Of a DNA stretch of 64,000 nucleotides, positions 9,320 to 53,763 are shown piece after piece (positions within the stretch are counted from its first letter, which is position 1; each line of letters starts with the position of its first letter). The position numbers and the translations under genes were made by a program. Under the pieces are notes generated by a model that saw only the letters and a program-made list of their open reading frames with translations, ran no database searches and had not been told where the DNA came from. Origin of the DNA: Streptomyces sp. NBC_00271 (GTDB lineage: Bacteria; Actinomycetota; Actinomycetes; Streptomycetales; Streptomycetaceae); assembly GCF_036178845.1 (NCBI RefSeq), contig NZ_CP108070.1, positions 5,890,001 to 5,954,000 of the forward strand, read 5' to 3'.

Positions 9320-9404
9320 GGTAGCGTGTCCGAGCGGCCGAAGGAGCTCGCCTCGAAAGCGAGTGTGGCGCAAGTCACCGAGGGTTCAAATCCCTCCGCT
9401 ACCG
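9320..9404 (+). tRNA. tRNA-Ser (anticodon CGA)
   Basis: Acceptor GGTAGCG (9320-9326) pairs with CGCTACC (9397-9403) and the discriminator base is G. The anticodon stem CTCGC/GCGAG encloses the loop CTCGAAA, so the anticodon is CGA. A long variable arm, as in class II serine tRNAs, precedes the GTTCAAATC T-loop. CCA is not encoded. TAGGGT at 9307-9312 is the probable -10 element. Confidence 0.97.
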
Positions 9405-9409
9405 CTTGA

Positions 9410-10273: not shown

Positions 10274-11212
10274 GTGCCGGCCAGTACTGCGCCTCAAGCA
10301 CCGCCACAGGAAATCCCCAAGGAACACATCACCACGGAACCCCTCGCCCAGGAACGCGTCACCACGGAACGCGCCGCCACGGAACCCCTCGCCCCGGAGC
10401 ACATCGCCCACGAACGCGTCACCCCTGAGCAGGCCACCCCTGAGCGACGCCGCGGCGCCGACACCCGGGCCCTCACCCAGCTGCTCTTCGGCCAGCTCAA
10501 GACGCTGGAGCCGGGCACCGCGGAGCACGACCGCGTACGCGGGGCGCTCATCGAGGCGAACCTGCCGCTCGTGCGCTACGCGGCCGCCCGCTTCCGCTCC
10601 CGCAACGAGCCGATGGAGGACGTGGTCCAGGTCGGCACCATCGGCCTGATCAACGCGATCGACCGCTTCGACCCCGACCGGGGCGTACAGTTCCCGACCT
10701 TCGCGATGCCGACCGTCGTCGGCGAGATCAAGCGGTACTTCCGCGACAACGTCCGCACCGTCCACGTGCCCCGCCGGCTGCACGAACTGTGGGTGCAGGT
10801 GAACAGCGCGACGGAGGACCTGACGACGGCCTTCGGGCGCTCCCCCTCGACCGCCGAGATCGCCGAGCGGCTGCGCATCAGCGAGGAGGAGGTGCTGTCC
10901 TGCATCGAGGCCGGACGCTCGTACCACGCGACCTCCCTCGAAGCCGCCCAGGAGGGTGACGGGCTGCCCGGACTGCTCGACCGGCTCGGCTACGAGGACC
11001 CGGCCCTCGACGGGGTCGAACACCGCGACCTCGTCCGCCATCTCCTCGTACAACTGCCCGAGCGCGAGCAGCGGATCCTTCTCCTGCGCTACTACAGCAA
11101 TCTGACGCAGTCACAGATCAGTGCCGAGCTGGGAGTCTCCCAGATGCACGTGTCAAGGCTGCTCGCCCGGAGCTTCGCACGGCTTCGATCCGCAAACAGG
11201 ATCGAGGCGTAA
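10274..11212 (+). CDS. sigF: RNA polymerase sigma factor, SigB/SigF family
   Basis: The 312-residue protein has sigma region 2 ([20 protein letters not shown] and [20 protein letters not shown]), region 3 and region 4 with the helix-turn-helix [20 protein letters not shown]. It lacks the -35-like anti-sigma-independent features of ECF factors. It closely matches streptomycete SigF, needed for late spore maturation, including the VPAST start. GTG 10274 is chosen for GGTGGAG at 10261-10267; a GTG at 10262 is in frame but overlaps that site. The N-terminal 65 residues are a repetitive Thr/Glu/Pro/Arg tract. Activity is probably held in check by an RsbW-type anti-sigma factor. Confidence 0.92.
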
Positions 11213-11311
11213 CCGGAAAGAGCGAATCGCTCAACGTCTCCTTTTCCGACAGTTCAGCGTCGAAAAACCGTCAGACCCCCCTTTTCCAGGGCCGATTCAC
11301 CCCCTCCATGT

Positions 11312-11388
11312 CGACATGTCACTACAGCGTGTTGCCGACATGTGACATTCTGCCGGAAGAGCGTTTGGCGCAGCCCCGCCTCCGGTAT
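11312..11388 (+). promoter_or_regulatory. sigN promoter region: paired CGACATGTSAC motifs and a SigB-type promoter
   Basis: Two direct copies, CGACATGTCAC at 11312-11322 and CGACATGTGAC at 11335-11345, are 23 bp apart, about two helical turns. Downstream, GTTT (11363-11366), 16 bases and CGGTAT (11383-11388) match the GTTT-N14-16-GGGTAT consensus for streptomycete SigB-family sigma factors with one mismatch. A start point near 11395 would leave about 60 bases of leader before the sigN ATG. Autoregulation by SigN or activation by a sister sigma factor is inferred. Confidence 0.6.
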
Positions 11389-11456
11389 TCAGGTGGAGGC
11401 TGCGTTCCTCCGACGGGAGCGTCCGCCGCGACCGTCCGCGACCCAAAGGGGGTGGC

Positions 11457-12365
11457 ATGTCCGCAGACCAGGGCAGCTCGAAGGTGCTCACGCTCACGAA
11501 GAGCGAATCCGCGCCCGACGCGCTTCACGATGTCCCGGCCCTCCCGGCCCCCGATGCCGCTCCGGCCCTCGAAGCCGTCCCGGCGGCCCCCGAGACCTCG
11601 GGAGCCATCGACACCCGCACCCTGTCCCGCTCCCTGTTCCTGCGGCTCGCCGCACTCGGCGAGAACAGCCCCGAGCGTGCCTACGTCCGGGACACCCTCA
11701 TCGAGCTCAACCTCCCGCTCGTGCGGTACGCGGCGGCCCGCTTCCGCTCCCGCAACGAGCCGATGGAGGACATCGTCCAGGTCGGCACCATCGGCCTGAT
11801 CAAGGCGATCGACCGCTTCGACTGCGAACGCGGCGTGGAGTTCCCGACGTTCGCGATGCCGACGGTCGTGGGCGAGATCAAGCGGTTCTTCCGTGACACC
11901 TCGTGGTCCGTCCGCGTCCCGCGGCGCCTCCAGGAGCTGCGCCTGGCCCTCACCAAGGCCAGCGACGAGCTCTCCCAGAAGCTCGACCGGTCCCCGACCG
12001 TCGCCGAACTCGCCGCGGTCCTGGGCGTGTCGGAGGAGGACGTCGTCGACGGCCTCGCGGTCGGCAACGCCTACACGGCCTCCTCCCTCGACTCCCCGGC
12101 CCCCGAGGACGACGGCGGCGAGGGCTCCCTCGCGGACCGCCTCGGCTACGAGGACACGGCGCTGGAGGGCGTCGAGTACCGCGAGTCGCTGAAGCCGCTG
12201 CTCGCCAAACTCCCGCCCCGCGAGCGCCGGATCATCATGCTGCGCTTCTTCGCCAACATGACCCAGTCGCAGATCGGCGAGGAGGTCGGCATCTCGCAGA
12301 TGCACGTCTCCCGCCTTCTCACCCGCACGCTGGCCCAGCTCCGCGAGGGCCTGATCTCCGACTGA
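11457..12365 (+). CDS. sigN: RNA polymerase sigma factor, SigB/SigF family, SigN-like
   Basis: The 302-residue protein shares regions 2 to 4 with its upstream neighbour ([35 protein letters not shown], and [20 protein letters not shown]), so the two are tandem paralogues. The match to SigN, which acts in aerial hyphae with the spore wall protein NepA, rests on order and N-terminal sequence. The ATG at 11457 follows AAAGGGGGTGG, a strong ribosome site. The upstream gap of 244 bp holds its own promoter, so it is not simply read through from sigF. Residues 10-50 are Ala/Pro-rich linker. Confidence 0.9.
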   Translation: MSADQGSSKVLTLTKSESAPDALHDVPALPAPDAAPALEAVPAAPETSGAIDTRTLSRSLFLRLAALGENSPERAYVRDTLIELNLPLVRYAAARFRSRNEPMEDIVQVGTIGLIKAIDRFDCERGVEFPTFAMPTVVGEIKRFFRDTSWSVRVPRRLQELRLALTKASDELSQKLDRSPTVAELAAVLGVSEEDVVDGLAVGNAYTASSLDSPAPEDDGGEGSLADRLGYEDTALEGVEYRESLKPLLAKLPPRERRIIMLRFFANMTQSQIGEEVGISQMHVSRLLTRTLAQLREGLISD

Positions 12366-29259: not shown

Positions 29260-30131
29260 CAGAAGAGCCCGTCCTGCTTCACGCTCCTGTCCTCCCACTC
29301 CCTTACAGGAACCGTCAGTTGCTCACCCCTGACCGCGGTCAGCTCCCACCCGGTCATGAGCCGCGTATCGACCACGACGACCCCACGCCCGGTCGCCAGA
29401 TGCAGATCGGGCCCGGCCGCGGCGACCAGCTCCCCGCTCACCACACCGCCCGCGACCAGCTCGCTCACGACACCGACAGCGGGCGGGAGCCCTTCGAGCC
29501 CGAACACCTCGGTGTGATCGACGGCCTGGAAGGGCGCCCGCTCCAGGGACTCGGGCCAGCCTTCGAGCTCCATGACCCGCGCGTGCAGCTCCCGGATCTC
29601 CTCGAGCCGCTCGCCCGCCCCCGGCAACGCGGCCCGCACCGCCCTCTTCTCGGCGTACGGGATCCGATCCGGCACCCGGAGCGCCGCCCGCAGCAGCTCC
29701 TCGGTCCGCCGCGCCGCCATCAACGGCCCCTGCCCCAGCCAGCTGAAGACGACGGCCCCCTGCTCCAGCAGCCGAGCCGACCCGCGCGCGGCCCCGGTGA
29801 TCCCGACCTTGACCAGGCCGGGCCCGAACCACGCGAGGTACACGCGGTACGGCCGCGGGTCGTCGGCCATCGTGTCGGCGGCCACGGAGTGCGTGCGGTC
29901 CAGCCGCGCGCACTCCTCACAACGGGCCCCCGCACTCCGCCCCGACACCACCGCCCGCAGCGGACACGCGTTCCCCCGCGCCCCCACACACGTCCGTACG
30001 CCCTCGTCCACCACCCCAAAGGCCACCCGTTTCCCCCAGGACAGCGCACTGCCCCGCCCGCCGCCCCACATCAGCACGGGGCCGTCCGCCGACCACCGCA
30101 GACCCGAACATCTCCACGTCTGTGCCATCAC
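29259..30131 (-). CDS. DUF2797 family protein
   Basis: The 290-residue protein starts TWRCSGLRWSADGPVLMW, has a Cys cluster CPLRAVVSGRSAGARCEECA (about 57-76) that could bind zinc, then PYRVYLAWFGPGLVKVGITG, which resembles the GIY-YIG nuclease strand pattern without all catalytic residues. The end, SVKQDGLF, matches family tails. The activity of DUF2797 proteins is unknown; nucleic acid binding is a guess. It heads a possible three-gene unit with the next two genes. Confidence 0.84.
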   Translation of the reverse strand: MMAQTWRCSGLRWSADGPVLMWGGGRGSALSWGKRVAFGVVDEGVRTCVGARGNACPLRAVVSGRSAGARCEECARLDRTHSVAADTMADDPRPYRVYLAWFGPGLVKVGITGAARGSARLLEQGAVVFSWLGQGPLMAARRTEELLRAALRVPDRIPYAEKRAVRAALPGAGERLEEIRELHARVMELEGWPESLERAPFQAVDHTEVFGLEGLPPAVGVVSELVAGGVVSGELVAAAGPDLHLATGRGVVVVDTRLMTGWELTAVRGEQLTVPVREWEDRSVKQDGLF

Positions 30132-33488: not shown

Positions 33489-33769
33489 ACCGCCTGCGCG
33501 CCGTCCGCACACCTGGTCTCCGTTACCGCAGGCCCATTCCGCGATCCTCACGGTGTGGATATCGAATTCGACGAGTGCGAGCTAATGACCGACTCCCACG
33601 GACCAGCCCAAGGCAAGCAAGTCAGCACGACCTTCAAGACCGCCGCGGTCGACGCCCTCGCGCTCGGCAGTCCGGCCGTGGCAGCGGGGTCACAGGTTCA
33701 CGCGGCCCCGTCGACTTCGCACTCCGCACCGGACGACGAGTCCGTGCGCGCCCAGAAGGCCGACGCCGT

Positions 33770-33864
33770 CCCGCAAAAGCCAGAGGCCCCGTGGATCACT
33801 CCACGGGGCCTCTGGTCCGGTGTGCACTCGGCAGGATTCGAGCCTGCAACCTTCTGATCCGTAG
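33770..33864 (-). pseudogene. Orphan 3' half of tRNA-Arg(ACG) with its terminator (attachment-site scar)
   Basis: These 95 bp align without gaps to 37455-37549 with six mismatches. They comprise the terminator hairpin and the tRNA-Arg 3' half (33823-33864), ending within the anticodon (CCGTAG). The 5' half of the tRNA is absent. The T-loop has changed (TTCGAAT to CTCGAAT), so it is free of selection. This is the pattern left when an integrative element enters the 3' end of a tRNA gene and supplies a replacement half. Confidence 0.88.
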
Positions 33865-33987
33865 GCGCGTGCAGCACCATCACGGACCGTTCGCCTGCTG
33901 GGATCTGTTGGTCCGTCCGCCGCTTACGGGCCCGCCGCCGTGCGTGGTTGTACGCCTCTGTTGATGTCAGCTACTGATGTCACGCAA
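33858..33987. repeat. 130-bp direct repeat, copy A (probable attachment-site arm)
   Basis: Identical, as far as I can read, to 36493-36622, starting in the anticodon core TCCGTAGG and ending CACGCAA. Weaker similarity continues for about 40 bp (CTGCGGCTTCGCTCGTG). Near its end are two TGATGTCA words at 33962-33969 and 33975-33982, 13 bp apart, like arm-type integrase sites. Confidence 0.85.
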
Positions 33988-34072
33988 TAGGCCCCGGACC
34001 TGCGGCTTCGCTCGTGAAGTCGTAACCTGCCGGATCAGCCGGACGCCAGATCCGGCCCGCCAACGACAGACA

Positions 34073-34127
34073 GGTCTTGAAAACGGTCGTGCGCGAGCCA
34101 CCCTGGGTTCAAATCCCACACCCACCG
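34073..34127 (+). pseudogene. Orphan 3' half of tRNA-Ser(UGA)
   Basis: From GGTCTTGAAAAC through the variable arm, GGGTTCAAATCCC and ACCCACCG, this matches the 3' 55-60 bases of the intact tRNA-Ser at 53677-53763, with differences in the variable arm and one in the anticodon stem. The matching terminator follows. It starts just 5' of the anticodon, as expected for a tRNA integration scar, but reads on the opposite strand from the intact gene. Confidence 0.87.
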
Positions 34128-34138
34128 CGCCGGTGAAT

Positions 34139-34170
34139 GGCCCCTGACCGGACGAGACGGTCAGGGGGCC
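34139..34170 (+). terminator. Terminator attached to the orphan tRNA-Ser half
   Basis: GGCCCCTGACCG (34139-34150) pairs with CGGTCAGGGGGCC (34158-34170) with one bulged G. It corresponds to the terminator of the intact tRNA-Ser at 53633-53670. Confidence 0.8.
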
Positions 34171-34244
34171 GTGTTGTTGCGCGGATGGGGCACGGGCAGC
34201 TTCTGATCCGTAGCTCTAGCCGGATCTCATCAAGGGGAGTCGCC

Positions 34245-36152
34245 CTACCAGTGGTCGTGGTGATCGCAGTGCTCGTCGTGCTGGTGACGCTTGATCTTGG
34301 TGGGGTCGGTGGCGGTGTGGGTGGTGGTGTCGCCGCCTCCGGTGACGGTGGCGGTGTTGGTGACGGTGCTGGGGGCCTTGCAGGAGACGTCCACCTTGAG
34401 GGTGATGGGTGGGTAGCTGCTCCCTGAGGGGAGGACGTCGCTGCGGGTACAGGTCACGGTGGATCGGCTGCAGGCCCATCCAGTGCCGCTGAGCGAGACG
34501 GGGGTGAGTCCCTTGGGCAAGGTTTCGGTCAGAGTGACGGTGGTGCCGTCGGTCGGGCCGGTGCCACTGTTGGTGACCGTGATGCTGTAGGTGCCCCTCT
34601 TGCCCTGCCCGAACGCGCCGCTGTGGGTCTTGCTGATCGCCAGCGTGGGCGGGCAGGCGCCAGTGATGGTCGTGGGATCGGTCGCGGTGTGAGTGGCGGT
34701 GTCCCCGCCGCCGGTGGCCGAGGCGGCGTTGGTGACCTGACCGGAGGCCGTACAGGCGACGTTGACCGTGAGGGTGAGCGCCGGATAGCTGCCACCGGAC
34801 GCGAGGACGTCACTGCGGGTACAGGTCAGCGTGGCCAGCGTGCACGTCCACCCGGTACCGCTCAACGACGTCGCGGTAAGCCCAGCCGGGAGAGTGTCGG
34901 TCACGGTGACGACGGTGCCGTCGGTCGCATCGATCCCGTCGTTACCGACCGTGAGCGTGTAGGAGCCGGACTGACCCCGCACCAAACTGCCACTGTGGCT
35001 CTTGCCGATGGTCAAGCTCGGGCCGGGGGGGCCGTAGGAGATGGTCACCTGGCCGTTGTTGTTCGCCGTCCCGATCGTGGACGGCGCATAGTGTGTACCG
35101 GTGCTCGGAGTGGTGGCGAAGCTGCTGCCCCCACCACCACCGCCCCCGCCCGCCGCGGTGCCCAGGTTGTTGACGGCGCCGCTGCCGCCGCCCCCGCCGG
35201 CGAAGTACCCGCCCCCACCGCCCCCACCACCAGCGATGGCAGTGGCGGCGCAGCCGCCGTCGAAGTTGCCCCCGGTGCCACCGGTACCGACCGTGGCACC
35301 GGAGAACCCGCTCCCCGGCCCGCCGTTCGTGACCGCACAGAATGGAACGGTGCCGGCGGCCCCGCCGGCCCCGCCGGTGCTGGTGCTGGTGCTGCCACCG
35401 CCCCCACCCTGCCCCGGCGAAGCCCCAGAGCCGGTGGCGCTTCCCGCGGTACCGCCGGTGGCATCCGGCGTTGTCCCGCCGTTGCCTCCGTTCCCCCCTT
35501 TAGAGCCCGCTCCGGTGCCGCCTGCAGCTCCGCCGCCCCCGGCGACCACCAGCAAGGAGCCGCCCGTGCTGATGCTGGAGGCCCCGCCCCCACCCGGCCC
35601 TTCAAAACGAAAACCACTGGCCGGAAAACTCCCACCTGGGGCGCCGCCGTTGAACCCACCGGCACCCGGCGTCCCGGTGCCGTTGCAGCCTTTGCCGCCG
35701 GTGCCGCCGACGTTGATGGTGAACGTTGTCGGTGCGGCGGTTTGCGGGAGCGTGGTGACGACCCGCGCCCCCGCCCCACCGGTCCCCGTGACGGAACAGG
35801 GGGTGCCGGTGTTGTCGGCACCGCCGGCCCCGTCCGCGGTGATCGTCACGAACATTCCCGCAGGAACCGTCAGGGTCTGCGGAGCGCCGGTGAAGGTGAA
35901 GGTCTGACTGACTGGCGCGGCTGCCCGACTGCCGCTGCGATGACCTGCCGTCGGAGAGTCGGCGACGGCCGCCGGCACCCCCGCACCAGTGAGCACGGCA
36001 CACACCGCTACGGTGACGCCCATACGCCACCAACCCCGCCCGGGCCCGGCCGGCGATGCCGCTGAAGCCGACACTTGCGCCGCCCGACGACCAGTGACAC
36101 GCCAGAGGCCCCGCTCGCCCCAACTTTGAGATCTGTGAACGTCATTGGTCAC
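34245..36152 (-). CDS. Secreted glycine-rich protein with two DUF11 domains and a His-rich tail
   Basis: The 635-residue precursor has a long N-region and a hydrophobic signal segment (VTVAVCAVLTGAGVPAAVA, about 46-64). A beta domain follows (FTFTGAPQTLTVPAGMFVTI), then about 240 residues very rich in Gly (GGGGGGGGYFAGGGGGSGAV). Two DUF11 repeats start near 383 (SLTIGKSHSGSLVRGQSGSY) and 505 (TLAISKTHSGAFGQGKRGTY), each with a Cys pair. The last 15 residues, KRHQHDEHCDHHDHW, look metal-binding. Function is unknown; a surface or matrix role is inferred. The gene is bracketed by 130-bp direct repeats in the tRNA-Arg scar and may be mobile cargo. Confidence 0.85.
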   Translation of the reverse strand: MTNDVHRSQSWGERGLWRVTGRRAAQVSASAASPAGPGRGWWRMGVTVAVCAVLTGAGVPAAVADSPTAGHRSGSRAAAPVSQTFTFTGAPQTLTVPAGMFVTITADGAGGADNTGTPCSVTGTGGAGARVVTTLPQTAAPTTFTINVGGTGGKGCNGTGTPGAGGFNGGAPGGSFPASGFRFEGPGGGGASSISTGGSLLVVAGGGGAAGGTGAGSKGGNGGNGGTTPDATGGTAGSATGSGASPGQGGGGGSTSTSTGGAGGAAGTVPFCAVTNGGPGSGFSGATVGTGGTGGNFDGGCAATAIAGGGGGGGGYFAGGGGGSGAVNNLGTAAGGGGGGGGSSFATTPSTGTHYAPSTIGTANNNGQVTISYGPPGPSLTIGKSHSGSLVRGQSGSYTLTVGNDGIDATDGTVVTVTDTLPAGLTATSLSGTGWTCTLATLTCTRSDVLASGGSYPALTLTVNVACTASGQVTNAASATGGGDTATHTATDPTTITGACPPTLAISKTHSGAFGQGKRGTYSITVTNSGTGPTDGTTVTLTETLPKGLTPVSLSGTGWACSRSTVTCTRSDVLPSGSSYPPITLKVDVSCKAPSTVTNTATVTGGGDTTTHTATDPTKIKRHQHDEHCDHHDHW

Positions 36153-36492
36153 AACACGCCGATCCTCTCCTGAAGCAATTCCCCGCTACGTCAGAAAACG
36201 GCCCGGGGGCGATAGAGCGACAACACACAAACACCGCTGTCGCGCAGGTAATGAAACCTGATGAAAGAACATAAAACGCGTCGAAACGCTGCAATCTGCA
36301 TCTGTCTGACAATCTGGCAGGGCTTTGGCGACAACAACCCTCAAAGGCCTGCGACGACGGTCTCGCCGGTCAGTCACCGGTGAGGACGAAAGCGTTTCGG
36401 ACCGGCCTCAAGTCGGGACGGCGAGTGATCGTTCACGCGTTCAATTCCAGGAACATCCATCGACCGCCTGCAGCAAGCGCCACGCCCCTTGT
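36153..36492. other. AT-rich upstream region of the DUF11 gene
   Basis: No gene is evident. This stretch is far richer in A and T than the rest of the window (for example AACATAAAACGCGTCGAAAC near 36268), which suggests foreign origin and a promoter for the minus-strand gene. AGGAGAGGA just before its GTG start is a ribosome site. Confidence 0.5.
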
Positions 36493-36622
36493 TCCGTAGG
36501 CGCGTGCAGCACCATCACGGACCGTTCGCCTGCTGGGATCTGTTGGTCCGTCCGCCGCTTACGGGCCCGCCGCCGTGCGTGGTTGTACGCCTCTGTTGAT
36601 GTCAGCTACTGATGTCACGCAA
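36493..36622. repeat. 130-bp direct repeat, copy B
   Basis: Same orientation as copy A and 2635 bp from it. Its left flank (CACGCCCCTTGT) is unrelated to tRNA-Arg, unlike copy A, so only the core CCGTAGG of the tRNA is shared. It also carries the paired TGATGTCA words. Confidence 0.85.
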
Positions 36623-36639
36623 CATGCCTTGGAACTGCG

Positions 36640-37135
36640 GCTTCGCTCGTGGAAGCCGCGACCTGCCGGATGGGCCGCACGCTAGGCAGGCCTGCCGTTC
36701 GGGCGACCTTCCGCTTGTCTGGCGACTCGATCCGTGTCGCGCGCTTGGGCGCTTGCGCGAGGTGTCCGTTGTCGTCCTGGCGGTCGGCGTACAGGATTTC
36801 TTGCTTTGCCTGCCGAACTCGTCAACACCCACGTCTGTCCCGGCTCCTGCTTCACGAAGTCGTTCTCGTCGTAGTCACGGTTGATGTCGAGGATCTCGAC
36901 GATGGACTCGACGTCCTTCGCGATGACGTCGATCGCCAGAAGGGCGCCGTCGGCTGACCAGGACGCAATGTCGGTACACGGTGGGCCGCCTGGGAGTACT
37001 CGTGTACTCCCAGGCGGCATAGGTTCAGCGGCGCTCGATCCAGTGGACCGCCCACACGTACACGCCGGTCGCAGACGCCTGCACGACCAGGCGCACGATT
37101 TCGTCGCTCGCGGTGTCCAGAAATAGTGCACGACA
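36640..37135 (-). pseudogene. Gene fragments of an integrated element
   Basis: On the minus strand, 37135-37022 in one frame gives LFLDTASDEIVRLVVQASAT, then GVYVWAVHWIERR and a stop, the likely C-terminal end of a lost gene. After a hairpin, 36965-36810 gives GALLAIDVIAKDVESIVEIL and DINRDYDENDFVKQEPGQTW, cut short by frame changes. A third frame continues with EILYADRQDDNGHLAQAPKR. None has a start and ribosome site. I cannot assign a family; composition and setting suggest remnants of an actinomycete integrative element. Confidence 0.55.
36985..37018 (-). terminator. Strong hairpin between element fragments
   Basis: GCCGCCTGGGAGTAC (36985-36999) and GTACTCCCAGGCGGC (37004-37018) form a perfect 15-bp stem with a TCGT loop, just after the stop of the fragment ending near 37022. 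Confidence 0.9.
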
Positions 37136-37211
37136 GAATGCGCAACGAGCCGAGCGGTAAGGGGCAGAAAGGCTTTACATCCATTACCTGTGGATGAATG
37201 GATTTGTACTC

Positions 37212-37370
37212 ATGGCGCAGGCTCCCGTGACCCCCAGGGTCATCAGGCGACAGCACGATCGAGAGATCGTCGTGCTGGCCGTCCCGGCCTTCGGCGCACT
37301 CGTCGCCGAGCCCCTCTTCGTCATGGCGGACAGTGCGGTCGTCGGCCATCTCGGCACGGCGCAACTGCCG
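37212..37370 (+). pseudogene. Truncated MATE-family efflux transporter (DinF-like), N-terminal fragment
   Basis: From ATG 37212 the frame reads MAQAPVTPRVIRRQHDREIV and VLAVPAFGALVAEPLFVMAD followed by SAVVGHLGTAQL, the first TM segment and MADSAVVGHLG motif of MATE transporters. Similarity stops at about residue 53 and the sequence runs into the tRNA-Arg terminator. A full protein has about 440 residues, so more than 85 percent is missing. Confidence 0.85.
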
Positions 37371-37454
37371 GACTCGGCGAGGTGCGGGCCTGTCCGATCG
37401 AGGTCCCCAAGTCGTTGCCCTCGTGGCCGCCCTTGGGGTCGTGCGCCTCAACGG

Positions 37455-37549
37455 CCCGCAAAAGCCAGAGGCCCTGTGGATCACTCCACAGGGCCTCTGA
37501 TCTGATGTGCACTCGGCAGGATTCGAACCTGCAACCTTCTGATCCGTAG
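37455..37549 (-). repeat. tRNA-Arg 3' half and terminator, intact-side copy of the 95-bp duplication
   Basis: The copy joined to the complete tRNA-Arg. Its terminator pairs CAGAGGCCCTGTGG (37466-37479) with CCACAGGGCCTCTG (37486-37499). In the other copy both stem partners have changed together (T to C, A to G), so the hairpin is kept. Confidence 0.88.
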
Positions 37550-37580
37550 TCAGATGCTCTATCCGTTAAGCTACGAGTGC
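37508..37580 (-). tRNA. tRNA-Arg (anticodon ACG)
   Basis: Acceptor GCACTCG pairs with CGAGTGC, discriminator A, 73 nt, no encoded CCA. The anticodon stem CTGA/TCAG encloses CTACGGA, giving ACG, the substrate of TadA. An integrative element has duplicated its 3' half. Confidence 0.97.
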
Positions 37581-37765: not shown

Positions 37766-37774
37766 ATCTTGGCG

Positions 37775-37865
37775 CGGAGGCGGAGGGATTTGAACCCTCG
37801 ATGGGCTTTAAGGCCCAAACCGCATTAGCAGTGCGGCGCCATAGACCGGACTAGGCGACGCCTCC
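37775..37865 (-). tRNA. tRNA-Ser (anticodon GCT)
   Basis: Acceptor GGAGGCG pairs with CGCCTCC, discriminator G, 91 nt with a long variable arm. The stem CCGCA/TGCGG encloses CTGCTAA, so the anticodon is GCT. Confidence 0.97.
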
Positions 37866-53417: not shown

Positions 53418-53744
53418 ATGGTTGATCAGAACTGGGGCGATGGCACCGAGTACCACCGGGCCGTGGGGCGGGCGTCGGTCATGGTGGCGGTCGCCTCGTG
53501 TTGCTCGTTGGTGGCGGTCGGGTTCGTTGTCCTCACTGTCTTCGGCGTGGGCGCCTTCGTGGCTCTCGTGAACGCTCTCAGCAGTTGGGTAACTGACGGG
53601 CAACCACGGTGGTTGACGGACAACGCACATGAGAACGGCCCCCGACCGATTTACCTGGTCAGGGGCCGTTCACCTGCGGTGGGTGTGGGATTTGAACCCA
53701 CGGTGACATCGCTGCCACGACGGTTTTCAAGACCGTTCCCTTAG
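53418..53744 (+). CDS. Small membrane protein, C-terminus probably altered
   Basis: ATG 53418 follows GGGGAGAGGGG, a strong ribosome site, and gives MVDQNWGDGTEYHRAVGRAS plus one or two TM segments (VMVAVASCCSLVAVGFVVLT). The frame then runs through the tRNA-Ser terminator and into the tRNA on the other strand, ending at 53744, so the tail is probably not original. A truncated gene at an integration site is likely. Confidence 0.45.
   Translation: MVDQNWGDGTEYHRAVGRASVMVAVASCCSLVAVGFVVLTVFGVGAFVALVNALSSWVTDGQPRWLTDNAHENGPRPIYLVRGRSPAVGVGFEPTVTSLPRRFSRPFP
53633..53670 (-). terminator. Terminator of tRNA-Ser(UGA)
   Basis: AACGGCCCC (53633-53641) pairs with GGGGCCGTT (53662-53670), with CGACC/TGGTC-type pairing inside. 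It matches the terminator attached to the orphan half at 34139. Confidence 0.88.
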
Positions 53745-53763
53745 GCCGCTCGGGCAACCCACC
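53677..53763 (-). tRNA. tRNA-Ser (anticodon TGA)
   Basis: Acceptor GGTGGGT pairs with ACCCACC, discriminator G, 87 nt, long variable arm. The stem ACGGT/ACCGT encloses CTTGAAA, so the anticodon is TGA. A 3' half of this gene occurs as an orphan at 34073. Confidence 0.97.

Follow-up and report, generated by a model that had tools for sequence, protein, structure and literature searches.

The window analysed here, a 64,000-nucleotide stretch of contig NZ_CP108070.1 of Streptomyces sp. NBC_00271, carries tRNA genes located with ARAGORN and two tRNA 3' halves that face one another across a short segment (Table 1). An earlier note had described these as the 3' halves of tRNA-Arg, on the minus strand, and tRNA-Ser(UGA), on the plus strand, pointing inward and ending at the crossover points of integrases. 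Sequence alignment to the intact genes bears this description out, and both halves start at or within a few nucleotides of the anticodon loop. The Arg half with its terminator aligns with 37452-37549 in the same orientation at 93% identity over 98 nt; for the Ser half with its terminator and the resident intact tRNA-Ser(UGA) gene the identity is 82.5% over 103 nt (E 4.8e-19 against the organism's own genome). The earlier note overlooked an exact copy of the Arg anticodon core, CTTCTGATCCGTAG, which lies 30 bp past the Ser terminator; the 349-bp segment that holds the Ser half (33851-34200) has Arg cores at both ends in direct orientation. The arm at 33855-34050 is duplicated at 36490-36685 with 93% identity over 196 nt, and remnants fill the interval between the second arm copy and the intact tRNA-Arg gene. 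Among the 10 open reading frames of the window that were run against Pfam, there was no match to a transfer or rep family. Because no integrase gene was found in the window (the own genome has 25 PF00589 matches, the nearest ~25 kb to the left of the window), activity cannot be claimed for the island in the window, which is at most a decayed tRNA-targeting element of the tyrosine integrase type.

Table 1. Features of the window bearing on the facing tRNA halves (positions are those of the window)
Feature	Position	Strand	Remarks
Ser(CGA) tRNA	9320-9405	plus	ARAGORN
Displaced tRNA-Arg 3' half with terminator	33767-33864	minus	Headed Arg core at 33851-33864
T-type element arm (R3)	33865-34050	plus	Direct repeats GTTGATGTCAGC/TGATGTCA at 33960-33982
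tRNA-Ser(UGA) 3' half with terminator	34073-34170	plus	Core at 34076-34089
G-type arm remnant (GGGGCACGG)	34185-34199	plus	In S. tropicalis and other modules, 40-50 bp longer
Headless Arg(ACG) core	34200-34213	minus	Exact, 14 nt; without an Arg 3' half alongside
Truncated N-type arm (R1), CTCTAGCCGGATC	34214-34226	plus	Same in S. tropicalis (L136)
Cargo open reading frame, 635 aa, DUF11 repeats	34245-36152	minus	PF01345, E 1.2e-18
Decayed Arg core (CCTTGTTCCGTAG)	36487-36499	minus	Read by eye; arm copy to its right
Second T-type arm copy	36500-36685	plus	Sequence match to the first arm
Intact tRNA-Arg(ACG)	37507-37580	minus	ARAGORN; integration target; core at 37536-37549
Intact Ser(GCU) tRNA	37774-37865	minus	ARAGORN
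Resident intact tRNA-Ser(UGA)	53676-53763	minus	ARAGORN

The earlier note had called both halves orphans, which does not hold for the Arg half, as the intact tRNA-Arg(ACG) gene lies 3.7 kb to its right in the same orientation. With an intact tRNA gene at one end and a displaced 3' half at the other, the locus has the layout of an integrative element, and the direct-orientation Arg cores at 33851, 34200 and 37536, together with the decayed core at 36487, are those of an accretion site. Accretion hotspots of this kind are known, and the Arg half here is an ordinary att scar of one, marking the far end of DNA integrated at tRNA-Arg(ACG). The DNA left of 33770 was expected to be found beside tRNA-Arg in other genomes, and this is the case: of 119 loci that have an Arg core junction, 21 contain stretches matching window 25-31 kb, and such stretches adjoin 5 of the 23 intact tRNA-Arg genes present in the fetched loci, many of these loci covering only ~1.5 kb of flank. 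Locus L027 is close to an empty site: the counterpart of 29652-30116 stops 216 bp short of an intact tRNA-Arg core, and the interval contains no other headed Arg core. The occurrence of both halves together at an unoccupied ancestral locus, which the earlier note named as evidence against its reading, was seen in none of the loci compared. A second Arg half, 100% identical to the resident one, lies ~57 kb off and inverted in the own genome (L009, C1:5870226-5871658), followed by 96-98% copies of window 36938-37456, with a headed Ser(GGA) core nearby.

The surroundings of the Ser half are of another kind. The DNA right of 34170, predicted to be the flank of tRNA-Ser, turned out to be the rest of an arm, the Arg core and the DUF11 gene. 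The half belongs to a module with the order Ser 3' half, terminator, GGGCACGG repeats, Arg core and arm, which recurs in the own genome, in S. tropicalis and at many other Streptomyces loci, mostly away from tRNA-Ser. Further Ser halves in the own genome lie at 4.632 Mb, where GTTCTGATCCGTCG, almost identical to the Arg core, comes after the half, its terminator and a further ~90 bp, and at 8.707 Mb, where the same spacer is present and the core has decayed. The Ser module was matched in 113 of 199 genomes of the genus at E ≤1e-20 (no more than three candidates scored per genome), many of the matches being at intact tRNA-Ser, and the full Ser-to-Arg module is also carried by the linear plasmids NZ_CP109170.1 and NZ_CP108366.1. 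Among the module occurrences caught, 18 of 20 were not at intact tRNA-Ser, in a set gathered partly by the Arg core. In Streptomyces tropicalis K1PA1 (L136) the composite occupies the same place, with 94% identity over 33776-34019 and 91% over 34072-35046, and a DUF11 gene follows the same junction as in the window. The recurrence of the module away from tRNA-Ser and the composite of S. tropicalis indicate that the Ser half arrived already joined to the Arg core.

These observations bear directly on the proposal that a tRNA-Arg element and a tRNA-Ser element left two independent scars that recombined on this chromosome. Although both halves are genuine and point inward, as that proposal states, Arg cores flank the Ser half (33851 and 34200), the half is found at the same site in S. 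tropicalis and recurs elsewhere joined to an Arg core, and it is closer to the Ser loci of other species (up to 90% identity) than to the resident gene (83%). We consider independent scars very unlikely; what stands of the earlier proposal is that the halves end at crossover points of integrases and that recombination between elements joined two tRNA specificities. Three further readings were rejected. Derivation of the Ser half from the resident tRNA-Ser gene by inversion does not fit the closer Ser loci of other species or the module common to S. tropicalis, and the left flank of the Ser core is not the 3' end of a protein gene, the frame being inconsistent. As for a phage origin, 33700-34300 had no match in 50,697 phage records (E 1e-5) and CTTCTGATCCGTAGCTCT had no exact occurrence in viral contigs.

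How could one module hold the cores of two tRNA genes? One hypothesis is a dual-core attP, in which a single arm with GGGCACGG sites serves two cores and the element integrates in either tRNA-Ser or tRNA-Arg. The spacing from arm to Arg core is alike in many copies, with the Ser core on the other side at ~180 nt, which suits this hypothesis. In many standalone copies CTCTA and a conserved arm come after this Arg core. However, in the fetched loci the Arg core accompanies 2 of 23 intact tRNA-Ser occurrences versus 18 of 34 standalone ones, figures that are not rates, since the Arg core was one of the criteria by which the loci were assembled and they are enriched in it. Moreover, where the arm repeats on both sides of the Arg core can be named, by eye, they are of different types, so that a single integrase is unlikely to bind both. 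For these reasons a dual-core attP appears unlikely.

Three recurrent arms are found to the right of the Arg core: R1, with GTTGCTGTACTTCGCTGCTGTAC-like end repeats, R2, with TGCCGTCA repeats, and R3, with TGATGTCA repeats. The Arg half stands at the left of R3 in 10 of 10 places and, in places degenerate, at the left of R2 in 25 of 27, the exceptions being a copy at 8.7088 Mb of the own genome and, in genome G244, the second copy of a pair separated by 52 bp. At R1 arms with their core, it was found in 27 of 81 (29 of 78 by a looser expression, and 13 of 39 held-out loci), the R1 loci having been picked by the Arg core-R1 word so that these counts are not genus-wide rates. With the Arg half to the left of nearly all R3 and R2 arms, it is mainly R1-type junctions that have composite left sides. 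The putative function of the arm repeats is suggested by a 2.9-kb element at tRNA-Arg in S. aurantiacus (L156), which encodes a 398-aa tyrosine integrase (PF00589, E 2.7e-14). Its repeat GGTTGCTGTACTTCGCTGCTGTAC occurs between the integrase stop codon and the terminator and again in the R1 arm, and hence on both sides of the attachment core; judging from this arrangement, the arm repeats are putative arm sites of the integrase.

An alternative hypothesis for the composite junctions is secondary-site integration, whereby an Arg-type integrase would insert its element beside the arms of other elements with a crossover just left of the core. The left edge of the junctions is sharp at the core, AC or GC often precedes the core (by eye), and, when the R1 arm was matched without its core (n=18), three matches followed no recognised core; the others came after an Arg core (10, of which 8 exact) or after other tRNA-like cores read by eye (5). 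However, the reciprocal product predicted by this hypothesis, an Arg 3' half without a core, was found in 1 of 199 genomes by a search with one exact 23-nt word and the next base, from which mutated halves escape, and that single case is an own-genome copy with a point change in the core. The near-absence of the reciprocal product, mutated halves aside, speaks against secondary-site integration, which we regard as quite unlikely.

Left of many R1-Arg cores that have no Arg half stand other arms, and farther left the anticodon core of another tRNA, namely Ser(UGA), Gly(CCC), Arg(CCU), Thr(UGU), Arg(CCG), Arg(UCU) or Ser(GGA). These cores were counted in a census based on the 14-nt cores of 43 isoacceptors, taken from the own genome and allowing at most one mismatch. 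Another tRNA core lies in the left 320 bp of 16 of 49 non-Arg junctions versus 0 of 29 junctions with an Arg half and 21 of 691 random segments drawn from the same loci (Fisher 5e-11 and 3e-4 for the two comparisons); the remaining 33 of the 49 have no recognised tRNA core at one mismatch. The cores also share a polarity. Outside intact tRNAs, and with Arg(ACG) left out, 80 loci (611,530 bp) contain 79 other cores oriented like the Arg core and 11 facing the opposite way; seven of these 11 are Ser(UGA) cores, which have the reverse arrangement. In 39 held-out loci (304,783 bp) the numbers are 30 versus 11, ten of these 11 being Ser, and the window background of 55.5 kb has 1 and 0. Most of the same-orientation cores (61 of 79) are headless, with no tRNA 3' half beside them, by a regular expression that misses mutated T loops, such that the Gly half of L148 is visible and was nevertheless scored headless.

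That the cores are chance or degenerate sequence resemblances, as might be supposed from the short motifs common to many Streptomyces tRNAs, is practically discounted by reversed-sequence controls. These gave 4 and 4 cores in the two orientations for the 80 loci and 0 and 2 for the held-out loci, and in the own genome (12.28 Mb) the 14-mer Arg core occurs at 12 places with at most one mismatch, nine of them exact, while the reversed pattern occurs at none. Rows of five or six cores, with some tRNAs repeated, were noted in L158, L162 and L198. In L143 and L169 a small open reading frame left of the Arg core seems, by eye, to have HPSDP* as its C-terminus, the final codons and stop coinciding with the core.

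Stacked cores are also seen inside islands. Islands were sought as an intact tRNA with a core of the same tRNA to its left, so that matched ends were preselected, and the 80 loci yielded six (L148, L149, L156, L169, L140 and L172), with L079 as a seventh. Inner cores are Ser(GGA) and Arg(ACG) in the Gly island L148, Gly(UCC) in the Arg island L149, Ile and Gly(UCC) in the Arg island L156, and Arg(ACG) and Pro in the Ser(GGA) island L169. The Pro island L079 holds Arg(CCU), Arg(ACG) and Gly cores together with a headed Ser core on the opposite strand, and L140 and L172 have no inner core. In the five islands with inner cores, 10 of 10 inner same-strand cores are headless. Further loci that contain an intact tRNA, L129 and L158 among them, have no core of the same tRNA within the stretch in view.

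The neighbours of a given segment differ between loci. A segment consisting of the Arg core-R1 start and an open reading frame of ~110-150 codons is common to seven loci (L079, L129, L171 with its duplicate record L084, L161, L168, L142 and L185), with 72-96% identity over at least 300 bp. Its left neighbours are of four kinds: the Ser module (L079, L129, L171), a TGATGTCAG arm (L161), the Arg half (L168, L142) and another sequence (L185). At its right end a Gly core lies at 640-641 bp in L079, L129 and L171 and at a like place in L161, and L168 has a Pro-like core (by eye); L142 and L185 stop short of that point. In L095 and L010, a one-gene R2-type segment of 1.0-1.3 kb, encoding a TPR protein and a glyoxalase, respectively, has on one side an Arg core whose left arm is foreign and on the other a headed Arg core, an arrangement that looks like a second insertion, made into a composite core. 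Taken with the mixed neighbours of the R1 segment, these two loci show that neighbours change at cores. The L010 segment (10756-11770) is a 1-kb stretch between Arg cores with a single glyoxalase-like gene. Two flavoprotein genes on plasmid NZ_CP109170.1 (L094, 2660 and 10109) each stand directly behind R1-like arm repeats, in a stretch that also holds restriction endonuclease, AIPR and AbiV genes.

Work by Pavlovic in 2004 reportedly dealt with CIMEs and site-specific accretion, CIMEs being said to have one common att specificity. Like the segments described here, CIMEs are integrase-less and lie between att sites; unlike CIMEs, these segments are bounded by cores from different tRNAs. Accretion of one to three AICEs plus a remnant has been described at a Streptomyces tRNA-Arg gene, and its authors raise the possibility that an integrase switch may change the target (PMC9513070). 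The part of that account considered here resembles our loci in its direct repeats, its remnant element and its several integrase types at one tRNA, but the repeats it describes are of one tRNA, whereas ours are one-way, headless cores of several. A further source (PMC3218068) describes Sav3708 and Sav3728 of S. avermitilis, in tandem in tRNA-Arg, and Fcci3390 of Frankia, with two integrases and two att pairs. The former shares with our loci the tandem arrangement at tRNA-Arg, and the latter the presence of two attachment specificities in one element; as portrayed there, however, these are whole elements with integrases, and what we observe are stacked relic half-sites, mostly without a tRNA half. 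Among the open-licence papers listed by literature searches, none had a title or abstract opening that dealt with stacked headless tRNA cores.

The facing fragments in the window thus look like part of a recurrent Streptomyces junction type and less like two separate insertion scars. We think it probable that the junctions are relic attachment sites stacked by replacement of integrase/attP modules and by exchange at shared cores. According to this reading, the Ser half would represent the P' side of an attachment site of tRNA-Ser type, already fused to an Arg core and arm in an ancestral element. The fused unit and its DUF11 cargo would have entered the tRNA-Arg site inside a stretch bounded by Arg cores; the bounding cores are observed, and the order of events is what we infer from them. 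At each such step the integrase/attP module of an element may be replaced, or a shared anticodon core may serve two elements for an exchange of parts. A headless relic, made up of the former core and arm with the same orientation, would then remain behind the newly acquired arm or the cargo of that arm. Because old cores and arms would be left behind, relics would stack and the segments between cores would gain new neighbours. Stacking, polarity, missing 3' halves and altered neighbours are what the loci show; replacement and exchange at cores are the causes proposed for them. Replacement would explain why core and arm are kept with the cargo, why tRNA half and integrase are lost and why the relics run one way, and exchange at shared cores would explain the mixed neighbours. 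The gap of ~1-5 nt from the last arm repeat to the Arg core (by eye) is left unexplained by plain replacement and is not fully explained by exchange, and neither process fully explains the rarity of R2 and R3 junctions in composites.

A more far-reaching idea calls on integrons, in whose gene-cassette arrays recombination sites of one polarity separate short segments, often of a single gene each, and the neighbours of a segment vary. The segments described here may resemble these arrays in length, gene content, polarity and neighbour change; unlike those of integrons, their sites are tRNA anticodon cores of several specificities. It is conceivable, though we hold it only tentatively, that Streptomyces has a tRNA-anticodon-core cassette system, in which core and arm cassettes are shuffled in arrays by several trans-acting tyrosine integrases at headless cores, as in integrons but with many specificities. 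Of the integron-like trait of single-gene segments between one-polarity sites, the polarity is seen, and neighbour change has been traced in detail for one segment family only.

Stacked copies of landing sites from different tRNA genes are a possible record of target change and gene swapping by the elements. If relic stacking through replacement and exchange is true, the islands are a readable record of past integration targets, and changes of integrase specificity could be ordered by position in the stack. Headless cores would then be predictable landing pads outside tRNA genes, and the reading would offer a testable, transposase-free route by which small genes could pass between elements.
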